DNA from: a virus | Strand: one strand, 5' to 3' | Length of the DNA: 54,137 nucleotides | Virus record (IMG/VR): IMGVR_UViG_3300022074_000055 | Span: 1 to 54,137 of that record | Part shown: positions 3,936-29,001 of the stretch, piece by piece | Layout: every line of letters begins with the position of its first letter | Numbering within the stretch: position 1 is the stretch's first letter | The notes under the pieces: model-generated | Told to the model about the DNA's origin: nothing | Seen by the model: only the letters and a program-made list of their open reading frames with translations | Databases searched by the model: none | Program-made: the position numbers and the translations under genes

Positions 3936-3964
3936 TTGACAGTGTGAAATACATTTCCTATTCT
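3936..3964 (+). promoter_or_regulatory. Sigma70-type promoter with GAAA-N4-TTTC operator (P1)
   Basis: TTGACA (3936-3941), a 17-base spacer and TATTCT (3959-3964) form a good promoter for the 3995 operon. The spacer holds the palindrome GAAATACATTTC (3946-3957). The same GAAA-N4-TTTC palindrome lies in or beside the spacer of three other promoters here, so one regulator could cover all of them. AGGAGG precedes the ATG at 3995. Confidence 0.75.
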
Positions 3965-8855: not shown

Positions 8856-8900
8856 ATGCATATAAGGACAAATGAAGAAAACCTTACAGGTACAATATAA
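8856..8900 (+). CDS. 14-residue leader peptide coupled to the primase-helicase gene
   Basis: AAAGGAC precedes ATG 8856, which opens MHIRTNEENLTGTI and stops at TAA 8898-8900, overlapping the ATG of the next gene. The large gene has only a weak site of its own (ACAGG), so translation of this peptide probably delivers ribosomes to it. The sequence has no run of rare or repeated codons pointing to classical attenuation. Confidence 0.45.
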   Translation: MHIRTNEENLTGTI

Positions 8901-11068
8901 TGCGTATTGCACCCTTTGACAACACTAAATCTAGTGATCCGCGTTATTTAGTGGAACATATTAGCGACAGTGTTCCATCTCATGTTCAGGTACAAACGCT
9001 AAAAGATACTTTTCCAAATGGAATCATTCGGGGCAATGTTTTTTACATTGGCTCAATGTATGGTGAACGTGGCGAATCTATGAAAATAGACATTAATCCT
9101 AGTAGCCAAAACTTCATGCGCGGTCAGGACTTCAACGGAGGCACTGGTGTCGGGGGTATTGTAAAGATACTTATGGAAGCACGAGGCATGAAGCTGCATG
9201 AAATAAAAGATATGTTCGGGTCTTACCTGGAAACAGCGCCAGTAAGAACGCGAACAAATTCATCCAGCACTACTCCTCCTTGGTTACAAAACCCAGTAAA
9301 CCAGCAGCCACAAGAAAATGTTCGGATTAAAACCACCATTGATATCAATACTGCTTATACGCAGGAATGGAATTATATTAGCAAAGATGGCGAAATAATA
9401 TGTTCAGTTAGGCGTTATGATATTGAGGGTAAGAAAGAATTTAGACCATTCCTACCAAACAATACCTATTCCAAAGCACCTGAAGTTAGGCCACTTTACA
9501 ATATCCCGAACATATTAAATGCCAAGCAAGTCATATGGGTAGAAGGCGAGAAGTGTGCTGAAGCTTTAATTCAATCGGGGTATGTAGCAACTTGCACATT
9601 GGGAGGGGCTGGTGCATTAACTAGAAACAACTCCCATAAGTATGATTTCACGCCACTCAGGGGAAAAGAAGTTATTTTATGGCCTGATAATGACGAAGCT
9701 GGTAAGCGCTTGGCTGAAATTGTTCGGGATATGTGTGTGGATGTTCAGGCTTCCTCAGTAACAATGCTTAAGCCACCATTTGATAAACCAGAAAAATGGG
9801 ACTCAGCAGACGCAATAGCCGAACAATTTGATATAAAGGCGTTCATTGATAAAAATTCCCAGTTCAAAACCAGAAGTATTAATCTTCTCGATGATAGCTT
9901 ACTTATTGATCGTTTCAGTGGGAAAGCGCCTGTTCAAGATTTCTTAATAGATAGTACGTTCCCATTGGGCATACCGATTATATTCTCTGCGGCTGGAGAT
10001 GCTGGTAAAGGCATGATGACCTTAGACCTTGGTATGAAAGTATCTTCTGGTTTCCCCATGCAAAATGCATTTGGCGGTATCGTTAAAGAGCATGGTGACG
10101 TTGTTATATTTACCGCAGAAGATGATGAGTCAGAAGTTCACAGACGTATCGAGAGAATGGATCCGTTTGAAAATAGAAGAACATTCAAGCATAAGCTTCA
10201 TATTGTGCCATTGCCTAATGTAGGCGGTACATTCCCCATACTTAGCGAAATAAATGGCGAGTACATTGTCTCAGAAGAATTTAATCGTATCCATGACCAG
10301 ATGTTACAAATGGAAAACTTAAAATTAGTTGTGTTTGACCCACTTGCGTCTTTTGTTCACGCTGATGTGAATTCTGACCCTGCGGCAGGGGCTGCCTTTA
10401 CTGGTCTTATGGCTAGGGTCGCAACAGAAACAGGGGCAAGTATTATAGTATGTCACCATATGACTAAATCGGGCGATAAGCCTGTGTCATCACCAGAGCA
10501 AGCCCGTAATCTTATTCGGGGTACTTCTGCATTGGTTGATGGTGTGCGCTCGGCATTTGCCCTATGGCAAGTCGAGGAAGGAGAGGCTAAAAAAAGATGT
10601 TCTGCTCTCGGCATAGGTTACGTCAGAAACATATGTTTTGATGGTGCTATAGTGAAGTCCAACGGACCAGCAGAAAGAAAAATACGAAAATTTGTTCGGG
10701 ATTTAGACAGCGGTTTGCTGGTAGATAATACACAAGCACTAGAGGCGGTAGAAACATCTAATGAGCGAGATGTTAAGCTAAACGCTCTATATAACTGGAT
10801 TGAGTTATGTGAGCGTAATGGTCGGGCTTTATGTCAAAAGACAGGAGCTGATTCAATCATAGAACGATTGGATGATGCAAACGCACCAACTACATTACAA
10901 AACATCTCTCAGGCAACAATAGATAGATATGTTCGGGAATTAATACAGACAAGGCGTATTGCGAAGTATTCATTCACGGCAACAGGAGGTAGTAAATGGC
11001 TTGGAACCACACAAGGCGTAATGTCTAATGGCGAATATCAAGCGGTTACTGCAAGAGACAATGCATAA
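8900..11068 (+). CDS. TOPRIM primase-like / RepA-type helicase fusion
   Basis: 722 residues. The N-terminal part has a MGRG-like FMRGQDFNGGTG segment. A TOPRIM domain follows, with WVEGEKCAEAL near 213 and WPDNDEAGKR near 262. From about 355 there is a RecA-fold ATPase of the RepA/AAA_25 kind: SAAGDAGKGMM as Walker A, LVVFDPLASF near 475 as Walker B, and IIVCHHMTK near 517. A C-terminal winged helix (SQATIDRYVRELIQT) is near 665. It should unwind and prime the replicating genome. As no phage DNA polymerase is present, it would act with host polymerase III. Five TGTTCGGG or CCCGAACA octamers lie within this gene. Confidence 0.8.
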   Translation: MRIAPFDNTKSSDPRYLVEHISDSVPSHVQVQTLKDTFPNGIIRGNVFYIGSMYGERGESMKIDINPSSQNFMRGQDFNGGTGVGGIVKILMEARGMKLHEIKDMFGSYLETAPVRTRTNSSSTTPPWLQNPVNQQPQENVRIKTTIDINTAYTQEWNYISKDGEIICSVRRYDIEGKKEFRPFLPNNTYSKAPEVRPLYNIPNILNAKQVIWVEGEKCAEALIQSGYVATCTLGGAGALTRNNSHKYDFTPLRGKEVILWPDNDEAGKRLAEIVRDMCVDVQASSVTMLKPPFDKPEKWDSADAIAEQFDIKAFIDKNSQFKTRSINLLDDSLLIDRFSGKAPVQDFLIDSTFPLGIPIIFSAAGDAGKGMMTLDLGMKVSSGFPMQNAFGGIVKEHGDVVIFTAEDDESEVHRRIERMDPFENRRTFKHKLHIVPLPNVGGTFPILSEINGEYIVSEEFNRIHDQMLQMENLKLVVFDPLASFVHADVNSDPAAGAAFTGLMARVATETGASIIVCHHMTKSGDKPVSSPEQARNLIRGTSALVDGVRSAFALWQVEEGEAKKRCSALGIGYVRNICFDGAIVKSNGPAERKIRKFVRDLDSGLLVDNTQALEAVETSNERDVKLNALYNWIELCERNGRALCQKTGADSIIERLDDANAPTTLQNISQATIDRYVRELIQTRRIAKYSFTATGGSKWLGTTQGVMSNGEYQAVTARDNA

Positions 11069-12227: not shown

Positions 12228-12595
12228 CTAAAGAAACAGAAAAAATAGATACAGTTGAATTATATTTATTAGAAAGAAGAAAAATAAAATTAAATAAGAA
12301 AAATTTGAAAAATAAACGAGATTATGAAAAAAAAAGACAAAGAGCAGAAAGACGCAATCATCACTTGAATTTATATAAGATAGCAAAGGGATGTCATAAT
12401 TGCGGGTATAAAGAACATCCAATAGCTCTTTATTTCTTCCATACATATAATGACAGAAATGTTGGAATATCGTCTGCTTTGTTTAATTGTACGATAAAAA
12501 AACTATTCAAAGAAATACGCAAGACAAAGCTTACTTGCGCTAATTGCACATCTATCTTTACAGCACAAAGACGTAAGGAGTATTACAATGTTTGA
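12221..12595 (+). CDS. HNH endonuclease-like protein, possibly degenerate
   Basis: 124 residues, very Lys-rich in the N-terminal half (coil of RRKIKLNKKNLKNKR type). The C-terminal part has CHNCGYKEHPIALYFFH and KLTCANC, the two zinc CxxC knuckles of a phage HNH family. In the family as I remember it the central motif is FDHI and the last knuckle is followed by His (CANCH). Here they read FFHTY and CANCTS, so catalytic residues may be missing. It overlaps both neighbours by a few bases, as a resident gene rather than a homing insertion. Confidence 0.6.
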   Translation: MVTKETEKIDTVELYLLERRKIKLNKKNLKNKRDYEKKRQRAERRNHHLNLYKIAKGCHNCGYKEHPIALYFFHTYNDRNVGISSALFNCTIKKLFKEIRKTKLTCANCTSIFTAQRRKEYYNV

Positions 12596-13010
12596 AGCAG
12601 CAATTACATGCCTTGCTCTTAATGTGTACTTTGAAGCCCGTAATCAACCCATGATAGGGCAAATAGCAGTAGCACAAGTGGTTATGCACAGAGTGTACGA
12701 TGAACGCTACCCTAATGACGTTTGTGAGGTCGTAGAACAGGGGCAAAGATACTCCTGGGATAAAAGTAAACTTGTTCGGGATAAATGCCAGTTTTCATGG
12801 TTCTGTGACGGGAAATCAGATAAACCTACAGACATGTATGCATGGCAAAAAGCCAGAATGATAGCCTCTGGAGTATATCGAGGTGCGCTATATGATGTGG
12901 TAGATCGGGCTACTCATTATCATTCAGTTGACGTATTACCAAGCTGGTCAGAGAGCAAACAGTATATAGTTCGGATCAATGATCATGTGTTCTATAGATG
13001 GGAAAAATAA
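12588..13010 (+). CDS. Cell wall hydrolase, SleB / Hydrolase_2 family
   Basis: 140 residues. Glu16 in LALNVYFEARNQP is the expected catalytic Glu of the SleB fold. FSWFCDG, AWQKARMIASGV and the DRATHYH segment also match the family. It should cleave peptidoglycan, probably as a lytic transglycosylase. There is no signal peptide. With the GH24 lysozyme at 2936 it gives the phage two muralytic enzymes: one beside the ejection genes, and this one in the early/middle region. A TGTTCGGG octamer lies in codons for LVRD. Confidence 0.8.
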   Translation: MFEAAITCLALNVYFEARNQPMIGQIAVAQVVMHRVYDERYPNDVCEVVEQGQRYSWDKSKLVRDKCQFSWFCDGKSDKPTDMYAWQKARMIASGVYRGALYDVVDRATHYHSVDVLPSWSESKQYIVRINDHVFYRWEK

Positions 13011-13341: not shown

Positions 13342-13878
13342 ATGCCAAAAGCAGGGCAAAGTTTAACTAAGGAGCAGAGTCTTGCACATATGAAAAGACT
13401 CACTCCACAACATCAAAAGTTTCTAGATAACTATATGTATCGGGATATGACACAAACCGCATCAGCAAGAGAAGCGGGGTACGCTAACCCGTCTGTCGCT
13501 GCTGTTAGGCTTCTGCGGAACGCTGTCGTCCAAGAGCGATTGGAAGAAATGAGGCTGGAGGCTAAAGCTAAGTTCGGGGTAACAGTTGATAAGTCTGTTC
13601 GGGACTTACTGAAGCTTAGAGATGAAGCTTGGCAGTTAGGTAAGTTCGGGGAAGCAATACGCGCTGAAGAGCTACGTTTGAAGGCCACAGGGCTACTTAT
13701 AAATAAAAGCCACATAACACACGAAGATGTATCGGGCTTAACTAAGGAGCAAATGCTTGAAAAGCTTGATGAATTCAGGCGTTTGGCAGATAGCAGAATG
13801 AAAAACATCACGCCCGTTGAAGGAGAGGCACAAGAGATAGTGCCTGATACAGAAATACCCACTATATCTAGTGATTAA
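13342..13878 (+). CDS. terS: Terminase small subunit
   Basis: 178 residues with AGAGGAGC upstream. The N-terminal part has LTPQHQKFLDNYMYR, TASAREAGYANPSVAAVRLL and NAVVQERLEEM, the helix-turn-helix of Terminase_2 small subunits. The rest is helical for oligomerisation, and the C-terminal tail is charged. It should recognise viral DNA and load it onto the large subunit. Unusually, the large subunit gene lies 6.7 kb downstream, beyond an accessory island. Two AGTTCGGGG and one TGTTCGGG octamer lie in this gene. Confidence 0.8.
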   Translation: MPKAGQSLTKEQSLAHMKRLTPQHQKFLDNYMYRDMTQTASAREAGYANPSVAAVRLLRNAVVQERLEEMRLEAKAKFGVTVDKSVRDLLKLRDEAWQLGKFGEAIRAEELRLKATGLLINKSHITHEDVSGLTKEQMLEKLDEFRRLADSRMKNITPVEGEAQEIVPDTEIPTISSD

Positions 13879-14303
13879 CCTTGTTCTCCCAGAGAGACGC
13901 TCTGGATATGTTCGGAGGTCGCCCTAGAGCCGCATCGAGGCATAGATCGGAATATGTTCGGGTTATGGTCATCGTGGTTCGGGTTCGCCCTGGGCGGAGC
14001 CGCTGGTAAACCCGAAGAAATGTTCGGGTTCGGGGCGCCCTCCGCCTGGGCTGCTGCTGAATCATCGGGGTCTTACCTGGATGCAACTTCGGGATCTGAA
14101 CAAATGTTCGGGATTATCCGCTGCCTGCCAGGTAAAACACAATATCTTGTGCTGCAGATCTGCTGACCCCCCTGGCTGCCGTGCTGCAGCAACTACTTCT
14201 TGGGAGTTAACCAGAACAATTGTTCGTCGAGCCCTGGGCCTGGGTGCTGCTCTCCCTAGTCCCGCAGCCAAGAAACTTTTTTTTATTCTTTTGTTTTTTT
14301 TAT
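13879..14303 (+). promoter_or_regulatory. GC-rich, repeat-bearing intergenic region before P2
   Basis: This stretch has no credible gene and is much richer in G+C than its surroundings. A hairpin CCAGAG-AGACG-CTCTGG follows the terS stop. TGTTCGGG occurs at 13955, 14021 and 14105, with further TTCGGG copies between. Several GCAGC/GCTGC elements can pair. The palindrome GAACAATTGTTC is at 14214-14225, about 79 bases before the -35 of P2. A T-rich tract (14275-14303) leads into the promoter. Short open frames on both strands here have no ribosome sites and arise from the GC content. Confidence 0.6.
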
Positions 14304-14353
14304 TTGACATACGAAATAGACTTCACTATATATTATATATGAAACACATTTCA
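14304..14353 (+). promoter_or_regulatory. Promoter P2 with two GAAA-N4-TTTC-type operators
   Basis: TTGACA (14304-14309), 17 bases, then TATATA (14327-14332). The spacer has GAAATAGACTTC (14313-14324, one mismatch to GAAA-N4-TTTC). A perfect 14-base copy TGAAACACATTTCA (14340-14353) lies at the start of the transcript and runs into CACACA and the AGGAG site of the 14371 gene. The second site could be a DNA operator or an RNA hairpin. Confidence 0.75.
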
Positions 14354-14370
14354 CACACAGGAGAAAAGAA

Positions 14371-14700
14371 ATGAATTATATAGAAAAACTTATTGAAGAA
14401 TTAAATGAATGTGATCAAAGCATTCTATGGGATGACTCTTCAGATAAGCATGATCTTACCCCATCTATTACGTTCAACGCTGGAGACACAGAAGATGGTC
14501 ACAATTTAGTTCAACTGTTTGCTTTTGAAACAAAAGAACAAGCAGAATTAGAGCAGTTAGATGTCTATGGAATTGATTTTGCTAAAGATGGGGATTTTAC
14601 TTATTCCAAATGGCACGGCAACAGTCGTCACGAAGCAATTCAAAGGGCATTAGTTATTGCACAAGATTTGCAAAAATTCGTTGAGGGAGAAAAGAAATGA
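14371..14700 (+). CDS. Accessory protein of unknown function
   Basis: 109 residues, first gene of the P2 operon, with AGGAGAAAAG upstream. Acidic, with helices at both ends and a central SITFNAGDTEDGHNLVQLFA strand region. It overlaps the next start by 4 bases. No recognised domain. Confidence 0.65.
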   Translation: MNYIEKLIEELNECDQSILWDDSSDKHDLTPSITFNAGDTEDGHNLVQLFAFETKEQAELEQLDVYGIDFAKDGDFTYSKWHGNSRHEAIQRALVIAQDLQKFVEGEKK

Positions 14701-14990
14701 GTAAATTTAATTCGTATGTAGATTTAACAGATAAAGGCGTTCTTTATTTGTGCAAATGGAACGATTCAATTGTAGAAATACATAATGAAGAAACCTTAAA
14801 AGACACATATTCAAACACTAATCTATTTACTGATCCAGATGGTATTTTCCATAATTTTGATTTGTTAAACCAAGTTAGTGTTGAAAATGATTTGACGCTT
14901 AAAAATTATTTGGAGTTATCCCAAAGTAATGAAAACTATTTAAGTAAAGAATTTGTTTGTGACAATATGCAAATTACAAGAATTTCTTGA
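14697..14990 (+). CDS. Accessory protein of unknown function
   Basis: 97 residues, ATG overlapping the previous stop, GAGGGAG upstream. Acidic, Asn-rich, with an N-terminal strand-rich part (GVLYLCKWNDSIVEIHN). No recognised domain. Confidence 0.6.
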   Translation: MSKFNSYVDLTDKGVLYLCKWNDSIVEIHNEETLKDTYSNTNLFTDPDGIFHNFDLLNQVSVENDLTLKNYLELSQSNENYLSKEFVCDNMQITRIS

Positions 14991-15002
14991 AGGGAAATAA
15001 AA

Positions 15003-15374
15003 ATGATTAAGAACCAAAAAACCAAAAGACTAATAGCAGATCTACAATATGTGGATCTGTTTGACTCAAACAATGTTTACAGGCGTTACTTCAGGCTTTG
15101 GCTTGATGGCTCGTATCTAGGAGAAGAACACTACAGGCGCAACATTGAACAAGCAAAGCGCTTGTGGAACAAACCTCGTAGGTCTATCCGTGCCTTTGTG
15201 TTGAATGAATGGCGCAAGTATAATGAGACTGATTTGAGCGAATACTCACAGCATCAAATCGCCAGAGCTTTCAAGGAAGTTCTGGGCGATAGATTGGAAG
15301 AGTTCAACGATACGCTTATTGAGGACTTCCGCGATCAGTTCCGTGAGTTCGTAGAAGAACGGGAAGTAGCGTGA
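15003..15374 (+). CDS. Helical accessory protein of unknown function
   Basis: 123 residues with AAGGGA upstream. It is largely helical and rich in Arg, Tyr and Glu (YRRYFRLWLDG, AKRLWNKPRRSIRAF, EEFNDTLIEDF). It ends inside the GTG start of the cyclotransferase gene, so the two are coupled. No domain recognised. Confidence 0.6.
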   Translation: MIKNQKTKRLIADLQYVDLFDSNNVYRRYFRLWLDGSYLGEEHYRRNIEQAKRLWNKPRRSIRAFVLNEWRKYNETDLSEYSQHQIARAFKEVLGDRLEEFNDTLIEDFRDQFREFVEEREVA

Positions 15375-15811
15375 GTAAATTATATTTTGCTTATGGCTCA
15401 AACCTTAACTTGGGGCAAATGCAACATCGTTGCCCCAATGCCCGACCCGTCGGGAAGGTTGCCTTTTTTGGCTATGAATTGACCTTTCGGGGAGTCGCTG
15501 ACATTATCAAAACAGGTCGTCCAGATAGTCGTATCGATGGGGGTCTTTGGGAAATTACACCAGAGTGTGAGAAGGCTCTTGATATATATGAGGGAGTCGC
15601 ACATCGGCTTTACAGTAAAATATATATTGCGGGAGTTATGACCTATCAGATGAACGGAGGGGATATTTCCCCGCCACCAAGAGGTTACTTTAATACAATC
15701 CGCGAGGGATACTATGATTTCGATATCGATGTAGTCTCGCTTTATGATTCTGCTGGTTGGGCGCACTATAACGAAATAGAGGAGAATAATTATGGATATA
15801 GCTATTTATAA
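15371..15811 (+). CDS. Gamma-glutamylcyclotransferase (GGCT/AIG2)-like protein
   Basis: 146 residues from GTG 15371, overlapping the previous stop, with GGGAAG upstream. YFAYGSNLN at residues 5-13 is the substrate-binding loop of the family, and Glu74 in LDIYEGV is the expected catalytic acid. The family releases 5-oxoproline from gamma-glutamyl amines or peptides. In phages and bacteria such genes are known to sit near amidoligases, as here (16979-18166), which suggests making and removing an amide or isopeptide bond. The substrate is unknown. Confidence 0.8.
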   Translation: MSKLYFAYGSNLNLGQMQHRCPNARPVGKVAFFGYELTFRGVADIIKTGRPDSRIDGGLWEITPECEKALDIYEGVAHRLYSKIYIAGVMTYQMNGGDISPPPRGYFNTIREGYYDFDIDVVSLYDSAGWAHYNEIEENNYGYSYL

Positions 15812-16004
15812 GATGAATTTTGAAGAGTTCAGGGATCTTTTAGCTCAAGCAAACCTAGAGGCTATCGGTGATAGCGCTGGTCCTGTAATGAAATGTTCGG
15901 GTACCAGAGACGCTGCTTGGGTCGGAAGATGGAAAGCTGAATCAAGTAATCGGTTTCGAGTAAGTTATTTCGGAGCAATGACGGATCCAGCCAGGATAAT
16001 GTAA
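15792..16004 (+). CDS. Accessory protein of unknown function
   Basis: 70 residues with GAGGAGAA before the ATG, overlapping the cyclotransferase gene by 20 bases. It has a helical start (FEEFRDLLAQANLEAIG) and a strand-rich end (RFRVSYFGAM). A TGTTCGGG octamer lies at 15894. Last gene of the P2 operon, followed by a terminator. Confidence 0.55.
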   Translation: MDIAIYKMNFEEFRDLLAQANLEAIGDSAGPVMKCSGTRDAAWVGRWKAESSNRFRVSYFGAMTDPARIM

Positions 16005-16028
16005 AATGTTCGGGTTTTCTGTGGAAAA

Positions 16029-16055
16029 GGTGCGGCTTCGGCTGCACTTTTTTTT
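16029..16055 (+). terminator. Rho-independent terminator of the P2 operon
   Basis: GTGCGGC-TTCG-GCTGCAC with one G-U pair and a very stable TTCG tetraloop (16030-16047), followed by eight T. It closes the transcript carrying the cyclotransferase gene. Confidence 0.9.
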
Positions 16056-16085
16056 GTCTCGTGCCCTGGAGGGACAGCAGCATAA

Positions 16086-16195
16086 CCCGAACAATTGTTC
16101 GTCCTGGTCAGCGGCAGGAGGCCAGGGCGCAGCAAAATTTTTTTTCAGGAAATGTGTTTTTTTATTTGACTCTATGAAATAAGTTTCGTATAGTA
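16086..16195 (+). promoter_or_regulatory. Promoter P3 module
   Basis: CCCGAACA (16086) overlaps the palindrome GAACAATTGTTC (16089-16100), 66 bases before TTGACT (16166-16171). After a 17-base spacer comes TATAGT (16189-16194). The spacer carries GAAATAAGTTTC (16176-16187), the operator seen at P1, P2 and P4. A T tract precedes the -35. The order of elements is the same as at P2 and P4. Confidence 0.75.
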
Positions 16196-16197
16196 TA

Positions 16198-16300
16198 TAG
16201 GTAAGTTGTTGGTCTTGCAGAAAGATATAAAACGGCTTGCACGGGAGGCGGTGTCGGAACTACCTAGATGTGGATGAAACCACCGCCTCTCACACACACA
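16198..16300 (+). ncRNA. Structured 5' leader with stable hairpin and CA-repeat
   Basis: The roughly 120-base leader after P3 contains GAGGCGGTG (16245-16253) perfectly complementary to CACCGCCTC (16281-16289), a 9-pair stem with a 27-base loop. The stem is followed at once by CACACACACA (16291-16300) and then the AGGAGG site of the 16322 gene. The intergenic stretch 16005-16321 holds no other gene. The hairpin may protect the mRNA or control translation. Confidence 0.55.
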
Positions 16301-16321
16301 GTTAAATTCAGGAGGGAAGTA

Positions 16322-16498
16322 ATGGAACAAGATTTAAGAGAACAGTTGGCTGTGGTATGGAGGGCGTTGCACAGCTACAGGCATGACCTCATACCTGAAG
16401 GCATAGACAAAGGTTATGATGAAGAGTGGGATGAGATATGTGGATCGATGGCATCAATAACCGAGGAGCTTGGGCTCGATTCAGTAGCTGTTGACTAA
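16322..16498 (+). CDS. Small helical protein, MEQDL family member 1
   Basis: 58 residues from ATG 16322, chosen for CAGGAGGG just before it over an in-frame ATG at 16268 inside the hairpin loop. Helical and acidic (EQLAVVWRALHSYRHDL). It shares its first five residues, MEQDL, with the next protein. Function unknown. Confidence 0.6.
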   Translation: MEQDLREQLAVVWRALHSYRHDLIPEGIDKGYDEEWDEICGSMASITEELGLDSVAVD

Positions 16499-16526
16499 TT
16501 CGGGTAAACGAACAAGGAGCAAAGTG

Positions 16527-16712
16527 ATGGAACAGGATTTAAACAATACTACACTACTTGAGTCTTTAGAGGATTTAGTAGACCAGCTAGGTAGGGATAA
16601 GATTACGGAAGAAGAAGCGACCACCGTGTTAGAATCTATAGTAAAATACCAAAAGTTTTGGGGTGAAGTGTGTCGGAATGGTAAACCTATGGTCGAATGT
16701 GAATGTTGTTAA
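16527..16712 (+). CDS. Small helical protein, MEQDL family member 2
   Basis: 61 residues from ATG 16527 (AAGGAGC upstream); the in-frame TTG at 16491 has no ribosome site. Helical and acidic, ending ECECC, a possible metal site. It shares the MEQDL start with the preceding protein, which may reflect duplication. Function unknown. Confidence 0.6.
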   Translation: MEQDLNNTTLLESLEDLVDQLGRDKITEEEATTVLESIVKYQKFWGEVCRNGKPMVECECC

Positions 16713-16732
16713 AAATTGTTCGGGTAATGAAC

Positions 16733-16759
16733 GGGCTGCTTACGGGCAGCCCTTTTTTT
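16733..16759 (+). terminator. Rho-independent terminator of the P3 operon
   Basis: GGGCTGC (16733-16739) pairs with GCAGCCC (16746-16752) around TTACGG, followed by seven T. A TGTTCGGG octamer (16717-16724) lies just before it, as one lies just before the P2 operon terminator. Confidence 0.9.
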
Positions 16760-16802
16760 ATGTCGGGATTCGGGCATCGGGCTTTCCTGCTGCTGCTTAA
16801 AA

Positions 16803-16960
16803 CCCGAACAATTGTTCTGCATTCCTGCTGCCTGTACCCCTGGATCACGCAGCGTGATTGTTGTTGTTTTTTGCTATTTTTGGCTAAAACCAGAACATTT
16901 TTCTTGTATATGAAATGCGTTTCATGGTAATTTAGGGGTGTCGATAGACACACACACACA
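16803..16960 (+). promoter_or_regulatory. Promoter P4 module for the amidoligase gene
   Basis: CCCGAACA (16803) overlaps the palindrome GAACAATTGTTC (16806-16817). About 87 bases on is a weak promoter, TTGTAT (16904-16909) and TAATTT (16928-16933), whose spacer holds the perfect palindrome TGAAATGCGTTTCA (16911-16924). The transcript would begin with hairpin GTGTC-GATA-GACAC and then a CA-repeat before AAAGGAAA and ATG 16979. The elements match P2 and P3 in order. Confidence 0.65.
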
Positions 16961-16978
16961 ACAAAAAGGAAATTTAAA

Positions 16979-18166
16979 ATGACTTACTTTAATGAAAACG
17001 ACTATTTGGTTTTTGGTTTAGAATGCGAGGTTAAGGGCTTATCTGTTAACCGCGCCAGACAAGCTTTACGCGATGCTAATATTAATTGGGTTCATGTAAC
17101 CGATGATGGCACGTCTGGCGTTGATGCTGAAATTGTTTTTCCACCATTGCCAGATAGCAATTTAGCATGGCGTAAAGTAGAAGAGGTTTATCAATGCTTA
17201 GAGAATGCAGGGGCAGGGATTAACGTATCATGCGGACATCATATTCATATCAGTACCAAAAAAATTGACTGTGACCGCCATAATAAAAACCAGTTTTTAG
17301 CTAAAAGCATTAGACTGTCAGAAACTAGCAATTATCCAAACATCCAAATAGCGAATGAATGTTTCAACCGTGATGAAATGGCGCCTGAGTTAATGATTGA
17401 TGTGACTAGACGCATTGTGAAGCATAATAGCGTTTATAACTCTATGGTTTCAGAAAGTAGAAGAAATAATCATTTCTGTGAGAATTCTAGAACAACATTA
17501 GAAAACATTGATTTGTGTAACACCATACAAGATTTAGAGAATGCATTTTGTTCTGGTTCAAATAGATCTCGCAAATTTATGGCTATCAATTTTACTAGAT
17601 GGTCTAGAGGTACTGTAAGAATAAGCGATCCAGAAACGGTGCGAGATGCTACGACTGTTGAATTCAGAAAGCATCAAGGCACTTTAGATATGAAAAAGAT
17701 TAGAGCGTGGGTACGTTTTCATCTCAATCTATTTTATACAAGCGATAGCACCAGATTAGATTATAGCAATACAACTTCAACATCTACTGATACGCCAATA
17801 CAGCCATTCAGAAATCATTCAAGAGTGGGCTTAATCTGGACAATGTGTCGTTCCGATAATGGCTCAACCGTTCAAGAGTTAATGAGCGCAACTGGTACTA
17901 GCGCAATAAATGTGAGAGCGCGTATATCTGAAATGAGAGCGCGATTTGGTGATGATGTTGTTGTTACACATTCTCAACAAACAAACGGTGCAAGCTATGG
18001 TGATGGTGACACTCACACAAGATATCAGATAAGAGAGACAGTTCAAACAAGTGCATCATCTATCAGATTATTACCAGAAAACAGAATAGGATTAGACAGT
18101 TTATTTTCTGGATTAGATGATAATCTATTTGAATTTCTGCAAGAAAGAATAGATGCGCTTTCATAG
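16979..18166 (+). CDS. Amidoligase with C-terminal winged-helix-like domain
   Basis: 395 residues. FGLECEV (12-18), VDAEIVFPP (about 48-56), CGHHIHIS (85-92) and VEFRKHQGTLD (near 228) are the spaced motifs of the glutamate-cysteine-ligase-like amidoligase family, which uses ATP to join a carboxyl to an amine. From about residue 280 the sequence changes to GLIWTMCRS, TVQELMSATG and NVRARISEMRARFG, resembling a winged helix that could bind DNA or a partner. It stands alone between P4 and a terminator. With the cyclotransferase at 15371 it may modify a protein or small molecule; the substrate is unknown. Confidence 0.75.
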   Translation: MTYFNENDYLVFGLECEVKGLSVNRARQALRDANINWVHVTDDGTSGVDAEIVFPPLPDSNLAWRKVEEVYQCLENAGAGINVSCGHHIHISTKKIDCDRHNKNQFLAKSIRLSETSNYPNIQIANECFNRDEMAPELMIDVTRRIVKHNSVYNSMVSESRRNNHFCENSRTTLENIDLCNTIQDLENAFCSGSNRSRKFMAINFTRWSRGTVRISDPETVRDATTVEFRKHQGTLDMKKIRAWVRFHLNLFYTSDSTRLDYSNTTSTSTDTPIQPFRNHSRVGLIWTMCRSDNGSTVQELMSATGTSAINVRARISEMRARFGDDVVVTHSQQTNGASYGDGDTHTRYQIRETVQTSASSIRLLPENRIGLDSLFSGLDDNLFEFLQERIDALS

Positions 18167-18404: not shown

Positions 18405-18647
18405 ATGGCGACATACAAGTTAACGATGGGCGAGGACTATATGTTTTCGGCTCGTGATGAGGGTGAATTCAGAGATAGGTTGCGTGAATACAATCCATTT
18501 CTAACGAGGGGCGATGAATTAAGGGATTTTTCGCGTACTATGTGCAACTGGAGTGGCAAGGGTATTGTTTTCAGTGATTTTGAGGGTTTTATAACGACTG
18601 CTGAGAGTGCTGGTTGCATGGAGGTATGTAGTGGGCAAGGTAATTAA
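18405..18647 (+). CDS. Small protein of unknown function
   Basis: 80 residues from ATG 18405, chosen for GGAGGG just upstream; an in-frame ATG at 18363 overlaps the promoter. Mixed composition (MATYKLTMGEDYMFSARDEG), one Trp and three Cys. It overlaps the XRE gene by 17 bases. Confidence 0.6.
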   Translation: MATYKLTMGEDYMFSARDEGEFRDRLREYNPFLTRGDELRDFSRTMCNWSGKGIVFSDFEGFITTAESAGCMEVCSGQGN

Positions 18648-19044
18648 CTACAAAGAGTCGTTAAAATCGAAGTGGGGGCCAGAGGAAATCAAGGCTGCTC
18701 GTGCTAGGGCGAACTTAACTTTGAAGGAATTATCTGATCAGTTAGGTATATCGCTTAGAATGTTGCAATATTACGAGGCTGGGAAGACACCTGTATCGAA
18801 AGCATTAGAAGATTCGATAAGGAGCATTGTGAATTGGGAGCAGGACAATCAGGGTTATCCAGATATAGATTTAGATGCTATAGGTACCCTGACGGGTTTT
18901 GATATTGAGCGTATAAACAGGTTGATACAGGGTATAGGCCGTTATTTGGAGGAGCATGAGTTTGAGCATGACAAGGGTTATTACAAGATTTTGCATCAAT
19001 CTAAGCAAGAATTGTCTCTTCTGTTGTCAAAATTTGATTTATAG
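18631..19044 (+). CDS. XRE-family helix-turn-helix regulator
   Basis: 137 residues from GTG 18631, which has GGAGG 6 bases before it. The frame is open to GTG 18607, which lacks a site. EIKAARARANLTLKELSDQL, then GISLRMLQYYEAGKTPVSKA, is a clear five-helix XRE DNA-binding domain near residues 17-60. A helical C-terminal part (INRLIQGIGRYLEEHE) is likely for dimerisation. It is the best candidate to bind the palindromic operators of the island and the replication promoter, though the RHH protein is a rival. Without an integrase, it more likely times gene expression than maintains lysogeny. Confidence 0.8.
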   Translation: MGKVINYKESLKSKWGPEEIKAARARANLTLKELSDQLGISLRMLQYYEAGKTPVSKALEDSIRSIVNWEQDNQGYPDIDLDAIGTLTGFDIERINRLIQGIGRYLEEHEFEHDKGYYKILHQSKQELSLLLSKFDL

Positions 19045-20537: not shown

Positions 20538-22022
20538 ATGAATGAGTCATTTAATATTGATTTAGATTATCTCACGGAGGAAGAACGTGGGATGCTCTCG
20601 AAGTACATTGAGAGTTATTCTTTAGTCAGTGAGCGAGAAGAGAAGCAAGGCACGTTTTTATCGTTTGTTCGTCATGTTTGGCCTACATTTATAGAGGGCA
20701 AGCATCATAGGATATATGCTGAGAAGTTAGAGAAGGTTGCGAAGGGCGAGATAAAGCGTTTAATAATTAACATGCCGCCTCGACATACAAAGTCTGAGTT
20801 TGCGAGTTTTTTATTTCCTTCTTGGTTAATGGGCAAAACGCCTAACAAGAAAATTATTCAAGCGACACACACGGCTGAGTTGGCTGTTGGTTTTGGTCGT
20901 AAAGTAAAGAATTTGATTGACAGTGATATTTACAGGGATGTTTTTCCTGATGTTAAGTTAGCTGTTGATGCGAAGGCTTCAGGTCGCTGGAGTACGAGTG
21001 AGGGCGGTGAGTATTACGCGGTTGGTGTAGGCGGTGCATTAGCTGGTCGTGGTGCTGATTTATGTATTATTGACGATCCTGTGTCTGAGCAGGATGCGTT
21101 ATCACCTACCGCGTTGGATAATATTTACGAATGGTACACATCTGGTCCAAGACAGAGGCTCCAGCCTGGAGGGTCGATAATTATAGTTATGACGAGGTGG
21201 AGTATACGGGATCTGACCGCGAAGGTACTTCAGAAGCAGGCAGAGGGCGGGGCGGATCAGTGGGACATAGTGGAGTTTCCTGCGATATTCCCCGATACCG
21301 ACAACGTATTGTGGCCCGAATATTGGGCAAAAGAAGAACTTGAGGCTGTTAAGGCTTCTATACCTGTAGGCAAGTGGAATGCACAGTATCTTCAGAATCC
21401 GACTGCTGAAGAGGGTGCGATTGTTAAGCGAGAGTGGTGGAATGTTTGGGATAGTAGTAGCCCACCTATGTGTTCATATATCATACAGTCGTATGATACT
21501 GCGTTTAGCAAGTCTGAGCGCGCTGATTATTCTGCTATTACTACTTGGGGTATATTTGAGCCTGTAGAGGGTGATGGGGAGGCTATTATTCTCCTCGATG
21601 CCCAGCGTGGTCGCTGGGATTTTCCTGAATTAAAAGAAGTTGCCAAAGATTTATATAATGAGTTTGAGCCTGACATGGTGCTTATAGAGCAGAAGGCTAG
21701 TGGTATGCCTTTAACACAGGAGTTAAGGCGCATGGACATACCTGTAACGCCATTTACGCCTAGTCGAGGCGCTGATAAGTTTACTCGCATGAATGCCTGT
21801 GCGCCAGTGTTTGAATCTGGTATGGTATGGAGGCCAGACATGAATTTTGCTGAAGAGGTTGTGGAGGAGTGTGCTGCGTTTCCGAATGGAGAACATGATG
21901 ACTTGGCAGATTCGATGACTCAGGCTATACTACGTTTTAGGCAAGGTGGTTTTATTTCGACTCCCACCGATTATGAAGATGAAGATTTAGTGCGTTATAA
22001 TCGCAGGAAGGAATATTACTGA
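20538..22022 (+). CDS. terL: Terminase large subunit
   Basis: 494 residues. MPPRHTKS near 79 is the Walker A-like motif, LCIIDDPV near 175 Walker B, and IIVMTRW the coupling segment. The RNaseH-like nuclease has SYDTAFS near 318, VLIEQKASG near 382 and HDDLADSM near 452 as acidic sites. It packages and cuts genomic DNA at the portal. Its 3' end overlaps a chain of six small genes with which it is probably translated. Confidence 0.9.
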   Translation: MNESFNIDLDYLTEEERGMLSKYIESYSLVSEREEKQGTFLSFVRHVWPTFIEGKHHRIYAEKLEKVAKGEIKRLIINMPPRHTKSEFASFLFPSWLMGKTPNKKIIQATHTAELAVGFGRKVKNLIDSDIYRDVFPDVKLAVDAKASGRWSTSEGGEYYAVGVGGALAGRGADLCIIDDPVSEQDALSPTALDNIYEWYTSGPRQRLQPGGSIIIVMTRWSIRDLTAKVLQKQAEGGADQWDIVEFPAIFPDTDNVLWPEYWAKEELEAVKASIPVGKWNAQYLQNPTAEEGAIVKREWWNVWDSSSPPMCSYIIQSYDTAFSKSERADYSAITTWGIFEPVEGDGEAIILLDAQRGRWDFPELKEVAKDLYNEFEPDMVLIEQKASGMPLTQELRRMDIPVTPFTPSRGADKFTRMNACAPVFESGMVWRPDMNFAEEVVEECAAFPNGEHDDLADSMTQAILRFRQGGFISTPTDYEDEDLVRYNRRKEYY

Positions 22023-28355: not shown

Positions 28356-28546
28356 TGGATGCAGTAGCATTAACTGAACATATGCTAAAGAACATACGCG
28401 AGAAGAAGAGTGATTATTCTCAGATGCTTGCTGATGGTGCGGTAGAGGATTATTCAAACTACCGATTTATAGTAGGGCAAATACGCGGCTTGCAATATTG
28501 TGAAGATGAATTAACTGCCGCGATGAAAGGTGTCATAGAGGGATGA
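28355..28546 (+). CDS. Small helical protein of unknown function
   Basis: 63 residues, coupled to both neighbours by overlapping start and stop. Helical (EHMLKNIREKKSDYSQML, YRFIVGQIRGLQYCEDEL). The pattern resembles small phage proteins next to head genes; function unknown. Confidence 0.55.
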   Translation: MDAVALTEHMLKNIREKKSDYSQMLADGAVEDYSNYRFIVGQIRGLQYCEDELTAAMKGVIEG

Positions 28547-29001
28547 CAAAGAAACTATTCGTGCCAGATAGAGTGGCTACGGCAAAGCTTCCTAAATCTA
28601 TTGAAAAAGGATTTGAAGCTGAAGAAGATAAAAACTCCAAAAATCCAGAGGAATTTGACGGTTCTGTTATAGATAGACTGCCTCAACCAGTAGGTTACAG
28701 GCTTCTCGTTATTCCTTATTACATGAAATCCAAGACAAAAGGTGGTGTTTATATACCTGACGCTACTCGTGATCGTGAAAGCTTTGCTACAGTAGCGGCT
28801 TATGTTGTTCGGCTTGGTCCAGACGCATACAAAGACATTGATAAGTTTCCTTCAGGAGCTTGGTGTGGTGAGAAATCATGGGTGCTTATGGGTAGATATG
28901 CTGGCAACAGGTTCAAAGTGGATGGTCTTGAGGTTAGGCTCATAAATGACGATAATATTATCGGAACTATCCTTGACCCCGCAGATATATCTTATGTATA
29001 A
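28543..29001 (+). CDS. GroES-like cochaperonin
   Basis: 152 residues. After a charged N-terminal extension of about 45 residues comes a Cpn10 domain: PQPVGYRLLVIPYYMKSKTK, GGVYIPDATRDRE (mobile-loop region), AAYVVRLGPDAY and WVLMGRYAGNRFKVDG, ending INDDNIIGTILDP. It probably caps host GroEL to fold the capsid protein, as T4 gp31 does for gp23. Its position two genes before the scaffold supports this. Confidence 0.8.
   Translation: MTKKLFVPDRVATAKLPKSIEKGFEAEEDKNSKNPEEFDGSVIDRLPQPVGYRLLVIPYYMKSKTKGGVYIPDATRDRESFATVAAYVVRLGPDAYKDIDKFPSGAWCGEKSWVLMGRYAGNRFKVDGLEVRLINDDNIIGTILDPADISYV

Follow-up and report, generated by a model that had tools for sequence, protein, structure and literature searches.

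A predicted glutamine-synthetase-fold amidoligase with a winged-helix tail and a gamma-glutamyl cyclotransferase form a reduced amidoligase-cyclotransferase system between the terminase genes of a marine bacteriophage

The virus record IMGVR_UViG_3300022074_000055 (positions 1 to 54,137) was analysed over its whole length of 54,137 bp, which is referred to as the window. Between the genes of the small (TerS) and large (TerL) terminase subunits, the window carries an amidoligase gene, a gene for a GGCT-type gamma-glutamyl cyclotransferase (GGCT) and a small gene, termed gene X, that precedes the GGCT gene. All coordinates are window positions, and the features of the locus are collected in Table 1.

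Table 1. Features of the amidoligase/GGCT locus. Deep relatives are 75 loci holding both enzymes, all from searches seeded with the window lineage.
Feature	Position	Strand	Basis or conservation
Amidoligase, glutamine synthetase (GS) fold, C-terminal winged helix, 395 aa	16979..18166	+	PF12224, AlphaFold2 model, Foldseek
DUF3489-type winged-helix domain, ligase C-terminus, residues about 280-355	17816..18043	+	weak profile and structural match
In-frame insertion of 42 nt (TVRISDPETVRDAT), immediately ahead of the conserved TVEFR strand	17612..17653	+	alignment with relatives
GGCT-type gamma-glutamyl cyclotransferase, 146 aa, GTG start	15371..15811	+	phrog_2520, PF06094, motifs
Gene X, 123 aa, overlaps GGCT start	15003..15374	+	conserved third member
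TerS gene	13342..13878		
TerL gene	20538..22022		
Promoter-like site of the X-GGCT operon: TTGACA, 17 nt, TATATA; imperfect operator 14313-14324 in spacer	14304..14332	+	read from sequence
Operator GAAACACATTTC	14341..14352	+	identical in L003, L004, L005, L006, L008, L011
Promoter-like site of the 16322/16527 operon; operator GAAATAAGTTTC (16176-16187) in spacer	16166..16194	+	operator kept in L002, L003, L004, L005, L008
Promoter-like region of the amidoligase; operator GAAATGCGTTTC (16912-16923); weak -10	16904..16932	+	region aligned in six relatives
Candidate repressor: Cro/CI-type helix-turn-helix (HTH) protein, downstream of the amidoligase	18607..19044	+	HTH_3 E=3.6e-7
Two small genes (14371, 14697) before X in the X-GGCT operon	14371..14990	+	found in 2/75 and 0/75 deep relatives
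70-aa gene overlapping GGCT end	15792..16004	+	10/13 close, 0/75 deep relatives
16322/16527 small-gene pair, own operator-bearing promoter	16322..16712	+	7/75 and 0/75 deep relatives

An earlier sequence-only reading of this DNA had recognised an amidoligase and an AIG2-like/GGCT protein by their motifs, and profile searches bore out both identifications. The amidoligase frame contains the motifs FGLECEV, CGHHIHIS and VEFRKHQGTLD, and it matched the Amidoligase_2 family PF12224 (E=2.8e-17, 63.8 bits against a curated cut-off of 22) and the amidoligase family phrog_2443 (2.4e-9). An AlphaFold2 model built on an alignment of 49 sequences reached a mean predicted local distance difference test (pLDDT) score of 89 and superseded an earlier model on 11 sequences, which was poor to mediocre. 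In Foldseek searches of the PDB, the best match of this model was YbdK (1r8g, 2e-4); glutamine synthetase was also matched, and gamma-glutamylmethylamide synthetase was found among the weaker GS-fold matches. Moreover, 43 viral models in BFVD were matched at E<=0.001, with the amidoligase of Arthrobacter phage Salgado at the top (8.6e-12), and the amidoligases of Pseudomonas phage tf (1.7e-7) and of CW02 were also recovered. Judged by its modelled structure, the product is a glutamine-synthetase-fold amidoligase, and ATP-dependent amide-bond formation is its predicted activity. Nine residues were invariant over the 49 sequences (E15, E17, E51, H88, R161, K199, E228, R230 and K240), and these acidic, histidine, arginine and lysine positions include candidate active-site residues, assigned by conservation. 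The ratio of nonsynonymous to synonymous substitution rates (dN/dS) of the ligase was 0.07-0.10.

The catalytic domain of the ligase covers residues about 9-255 and is followed by a second domain of the DUF3489 type. The DUF3489 match was weak in the window ligase (E=0.008) and exceeded the Pfam cut-off in the relatives L013, L211, L212, L227 and L233. In addition, the PDB matches of the ligase model included 3cuo, a predicted DNA-binding transcriptional regulator. The tail is kept across the window lineage, and the same ligase-DUF3489 fusion occurs in the bacterial loci L211, L212, L227 and L233, two of which, from Defluviicoccus (L212, L233), carry GGCT directly after the fusion. DUF3489 gave no match in the ligase of phage phiM6 or in that of contig L029. 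The 42-nt insertion was seen in the window only, without a counterpart in the aligned relatives, and was modelled as a low-confidence loop (residues 213-221). As a separate observation, the ligase of contigs L088, L096, L099 and L102 appears to be split over two frames that overlap, and the match contains some 300-400 additional bases.

The cyclotransferase showed the YFAYGSNL loop and Glu74, and it matched phrog_2520 (6e-19) and PF06094 (5.7e-5, over its cut-off). A profile of 20 diverse GGCT homologues matched human GGCT (2PN7, 7e-17) and, weakly, YkqA; no GGACT or ChaC entry was matched by the same profile. Residues Y8, G9, N11 and E74 were invariant across these homologues, and E74 aligned with the glutamate of the human QEG motif. 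The enzyme is predicted to release 5-oxoproline from gamma-glutamyl amides. Its dN/dS was 0.09-0.19, and both the ligase and GGCT are under purifying selection.

The two genes were found together in a wide range of viruses. From viral contigs, 80 ligase loci were collected, and GGCT was present in all 24 of the newly fetched loci with at least 4.6 kb of upstream sequence that were scored, on the ligase strand in 8 and on the opposite strand in 16. When loci were instead centred on terL and had 7 kb or more of upstream sequence, both genes were found in 20, the ligase alone in 7 and neither in 4, and there was no locus with GGCT alone. Of the seven contigs with the ligase alone, three carry GGCT further away, and the remainder include short fragments. 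Conversely, 17 of 30 GGCT contigs (window lineage counted in) also hold PF12224. Ligase and GGCT stand side by side in annotated phages of Arthrobacter, Geobacillus, Terrisporobacter and gut Firmicutes, and the pair is also present in jumbo-size contigs and in a Sinorhizobium phage; the Arthrobacter, Geobacillus, gut Firmicutes and Sinorhizobium phages are unrelated to the window phage. The pair recurs in phages differing in neighbours and gene order. The sequence-only reading had named two findings that would speak against it, motifs lying outside an amidoligase fold and genes that do not co-occur in relatives; since the fold was found and the genes do co-occur, neither applies. In two of the jumbo-size contigs, L039 (524 kb) and L042 (352 kb), the amidoligase was noted within frames of about 800 aa, tens of kb from GGCT.

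Furthermore, the pairwise distances of ligase and GGCT over 26 related phages correlated at 0.87, a value higher than those of either enzyme with the terminases (ligase-TerL 0.71, ligase-TerS 0.69, GGCT-TerL 0.76, GGCT-TerS 0.81), and the correlation was 0.72 after TerL and TerS had been partialled out. This co-diversification backs a functional coupling of the two enzymes.

Gene X matched no family in Pfam or PHROGs. In 36/36 loci holding X, GGCT and the ligase, the X gene precedes GGCT in the same orientation and often overlaps it, and this arrangement holds even where the two together are inverted with respect to the ligase. An independent search for X gave 57 loci with 1.5 kb or more of downstream sequence, and GGCT was found there in 54, a count with some bias left because the X profile was derived from copies near GGCT or the ligase; the three remaining contigs have no GGCT over their full length and may be fragments. 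The X proteins share the invariant motif RR-FR-LDGSY-G, and 49 of 56 unique proteins end in alanine, mostly as -AA or -VA, against a background of 17% of the proteins in these contigs. These C-terminal tails look like ClpXP-type degron tails. X was not detectable in 52 of 88 loci holding both enzymes, and it was not found in phiM6 or in the tested Arthrobacter, Geobacillus and gut phages. From these comparisons, gene X is a conserved, though not universal, third member of the locus. The sequence-only reading had proposed five groups of neighbouring genes as candidate partners or substrates; of these, X (15003) alone proved to be a conserved neighbour, and 14371, 14697, 15792 and the 16322/16527 pair are conserved with the two enzymes in a few relatives at most.

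The pairing of ligase and GGCT is not new, because phages such as phiEco32, RIO-1, LUZ24 and phiM6 have been reported to carry a cassette of amidoligases, a class-II glutamine amidotransferase, an ATP-grasp enzyme and GGCT, which has been proposed to modify peptidoglycan (PMC5498523, PMC6256558, PMC11945000). The window locus resembles this cassette in having a PF12224 amidoligase and GGCT in one region and in the shared ligase fold (tf, CW02). Three features differ from the published cassette, namely the DUF3489 tail on the ligase, the missing class-II amidotransferase and the conserved gene X, and the window locus is placed between TerS and TerL. The class-II amidotransferase family PF13522 was absent in the window and ten relatives, whereas 14/14 controls matched, so the locus lacks one defining feature of the cassette. 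The second COOH-NH2 ligase, PF14395, gave no match, but the positive controls gave none either; among about 30 window proteins, general Pfam scans revealed no ATP-grasp enzyme, and no search aimed at ATP-grasp was made. The window system is a pared-down form of the amidoligase-GGCT systems known from phages.

Other likenesses were found further afield. Amidoligase and GGCT are side by side in Heliusvirales gut phages, Arthrobacter cluster AL phages, Geobacillus phage GR1 and Tn6164, and in gut phages the pair lies shortly upstream of the terminase genes; unlike the window, the tested gut, Arthrobacter and Geobacillus phages have no gene X. A zinc-ribbon gene of about 65 aa stands at or overlaps the end of GGCT in the gut Firmicutes phages L286, L287, L288, L289, L293 and L294, whereas the window has an unrelated 70-aa gene there, and a common small gene after GGCT was rejected. 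YbdK/GCS2-type carboxylate-amine ligases and glutamine synthetase gave the best PDB fold matches, but identity was about 10% and the window ligase has the winged helix added. The PafA/Dop enzymes of pupylation are also GS-fold ligases acting on a protein carboxylate and were weakly matched by Foldseek, but the structural similarity was marginal and X was rejected as a Pup homologue, its end being predominantly alanine and GGE or GGQ in 0/56 unique proteins. In butirosin synthesis, a small-molecule pathway, the ligase BtrJ attaches a gamma-glutamyl group and the GGCT-fold enzyme BtrG removes it as 5-oxoproline. This protect-deprotect pair is a parallel to ligase and GGCT, although BtrJ is an ATP-grasp ligase and not a GS-fold enzyme.

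The claim that neighbouring operons carry the same operators and leaders was confirmed. The sequence GAAA-N4-TTTC occurs at four sites in 54 kb (3946, 14341, 16176 and 16912), and the significance of these operators rests on their position and conservation, because the count by itself is unremarkable (four sites were reached in 8/100 shuffles). Operators 3946, 16176 and 16912 sit between a -35-like and a -10-like element, in the spacer of 17 bp, and operator 14341 lies just 3' of a promoter whose spacer holds the imperfect copy. The 14341-type and 16176-type operators are kept exactly in close relatives, whereas the operator of the ligase promoter has at least one mismatch in relatives, for example GCAATGCGTTTC. 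An ACACACA leader precedes the ribosome site in all three operons. Shared control of X-GGCT and the ligase, as had been suggested, is therefore likely in this phage and its clade, but it is not general because GGCT is opposite in strand to the ligase in 16/24 relatives. The HTH protein at 18607, found in 33/75 deep relatives, is a candidate for the repressor acting on the shared operators. The fourth operator lies in a TTGACA-17-TATTCT promoter-like site (3936-3964) before gene 3995 and then an AAA_24 ATPase gene, suggesting that these genes may belong to one regulon. In addition, AACCCGAACAATTGTTC-related repeats flank terminator/promoter spacers at 13900-16900 (e.g. 14009, 14209, 16084 and 16801); the window holds 15 matches with three or fewer mismatches, against 0.13 expected, and 9/15 are in the intergenic regions of 13900-16900. 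A comparable palindrome, CGCACAATTGTGCG, was seen in some relatives (L018).

The large terminase subunit of the window is nearest to those of the marine phages 023Pt_psg01 and Pelagibacter HTVC027P and HTVC023P and of DSL-LC04 (58-61% identity). The ligase and GGCT genes had no match in HTVC027P, 023Pt_psg01 or DSL-LC04, each searched whole, and a megablast search of the locus against annotated phages also gave none. The replication helicase/primase (8900-11068) is similar to its counterparts in Wolbachia phage WO and rhizobial phages, so the host may be an alphaproteobacterium. A Cpn10/GroES-like gene was noted within the structural region (28543-29001).

With moderate confidence, we favour a cycle in which a gamma-glutamyl amide is made and broken on an intracellular target early in infection. 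The sequence-only reading had suggested that an amino acid or peptide tag may be attached to, and removed from, a virion, DNA-bound or host protein. From its fold and family, the amidoligase would activate a carboxylate at the expense of ATP, the gamma-carboxyl of glutamate being the likeliest one, and would couple it to an amine on the target. From its family and Glu74, GGCT would cleave a gamma-glutamyl bond, turning the glutamyl group into 5-oxoproline by cyclisation. The winged-helix tail probably steers the ligase to a particular macromolecule (DNA, RNA or peptide), and for this reason a macromolecule or peptide inside the cell seems a likelier target than bulk metabolism. The cycle is supported by the fold and families, the invariant candidate catalytic residues, purifying selection, co-occurrence, co-diversification, the DUF3489 tail and the shared operators; from these we infer the early timing, the action of both enzymes on the same bond and the recruitment of the target by the tail. 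Several points weigh against such a cycle. GGCT was nearby in only 6/74 bacterial PF12224 loci, so that the ligase can act without GGCT. Moreover, X-GGCT and the ligase are often on opposite strands, the 14-residue insertion beside the conserved strand could impair the window ligase, and the distance correlations, computed on related sequences whose pairs are not independent, describe coupling and do not prove it.

Remodelling of peptidoglycan peptides by ligase and GGCT, for example as a block to superinfection, ranks second and appears rather unlikely for the window phage, even though this role has been proposed in print for phages that carry both enzymes and the ligase shares its fold with the amidoligases of cassette phages. 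A SleB-type cell-wall hydrolase gene lies 2.4 kb upstream in the window (12588-13010), and another is directly upstream of GGCT in the unrelated phage contig L049 (6905-7941); the window hydrolase, however, is kept in only 2/75 deep relatives, the amidotransferase of the cassette is absent and it is not obvious what a winged-helix tail would do at the wall. One Heliusvirales phage that carries the pair has been assigned to Anaeroplasmataceae, a family regarded as peptidoglycan-deficient, but this argument is weak because 40-60% of the genomes of the family retain wall genes and the host assignment is itself predicted. When Pfam domains near distant GGCTs were tallied, terminase, DNA ligase and a miscellany of other domains turned up, one cell-wall hydrolase being among the families shown, and this mixture carries no functional signal. 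Similar SleB-type genes were also seen just upstream of GGCT in contigs L050 and L051.

A bolder version of the favoured cycle, in which X would be the acceptor, carrier or adaptor for the amide made by the ligase and GGCT would be the release enzyme, seems quite unlikely. If true, X, ligase and GGCT would amount to a system, encoded by the phage, for reversible protein conjugation in which the winged helix guides the GS-fold ligase.

We also doubt that the pair feeds host nitrogen or gamma-glutamyl/glutathione metabolism, which is improbable on present evidence. Phage-ZRK32 carries an amidotransferase, an amidoligase, glutathione synthase and GGCT, for which a link to nitrogen metabolism is proposed, and it stimulated bacterial growth with nitrate or ammonium, an effect not traced to these genes in the passages considered (PMC10945688). 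Among the weaker matches of the window ligase, gamma-glutamylmethylamide synthetase would fit such a role, but the amidotransferase is missing in the window lineage and a winged-helix tail is unexpected on a bulk metabolic enzyme. Least probable is that the two genes are mere neighbours, inherited in one early or terminase-proximal block: although the searches behind all 75 deep loci were seeded with the window lineage, 71 of these loci hold TerS and many bacterial PF12224 genes lack GGCT, the pair recurs among phages with other neighbours and other gene order, its distance correlation exceeds that with either terminase even though TerS lies between them in some loci, and no terL-centred locus has GGCT without the ligase.

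In conclusion, ligase-GGCT pairs span very different phages, and their substrate has so far been guessed, as the cell wall or as nitrogen metabolism. In the window lineage, the system is stripped to the ligase, the cyclotransferase and, in many members, one small protein, and a domain of the nucleic-acid-binding type has been added. This three-gene set makes the question of the substrate testable and calls the standard cell-wall reading into question.

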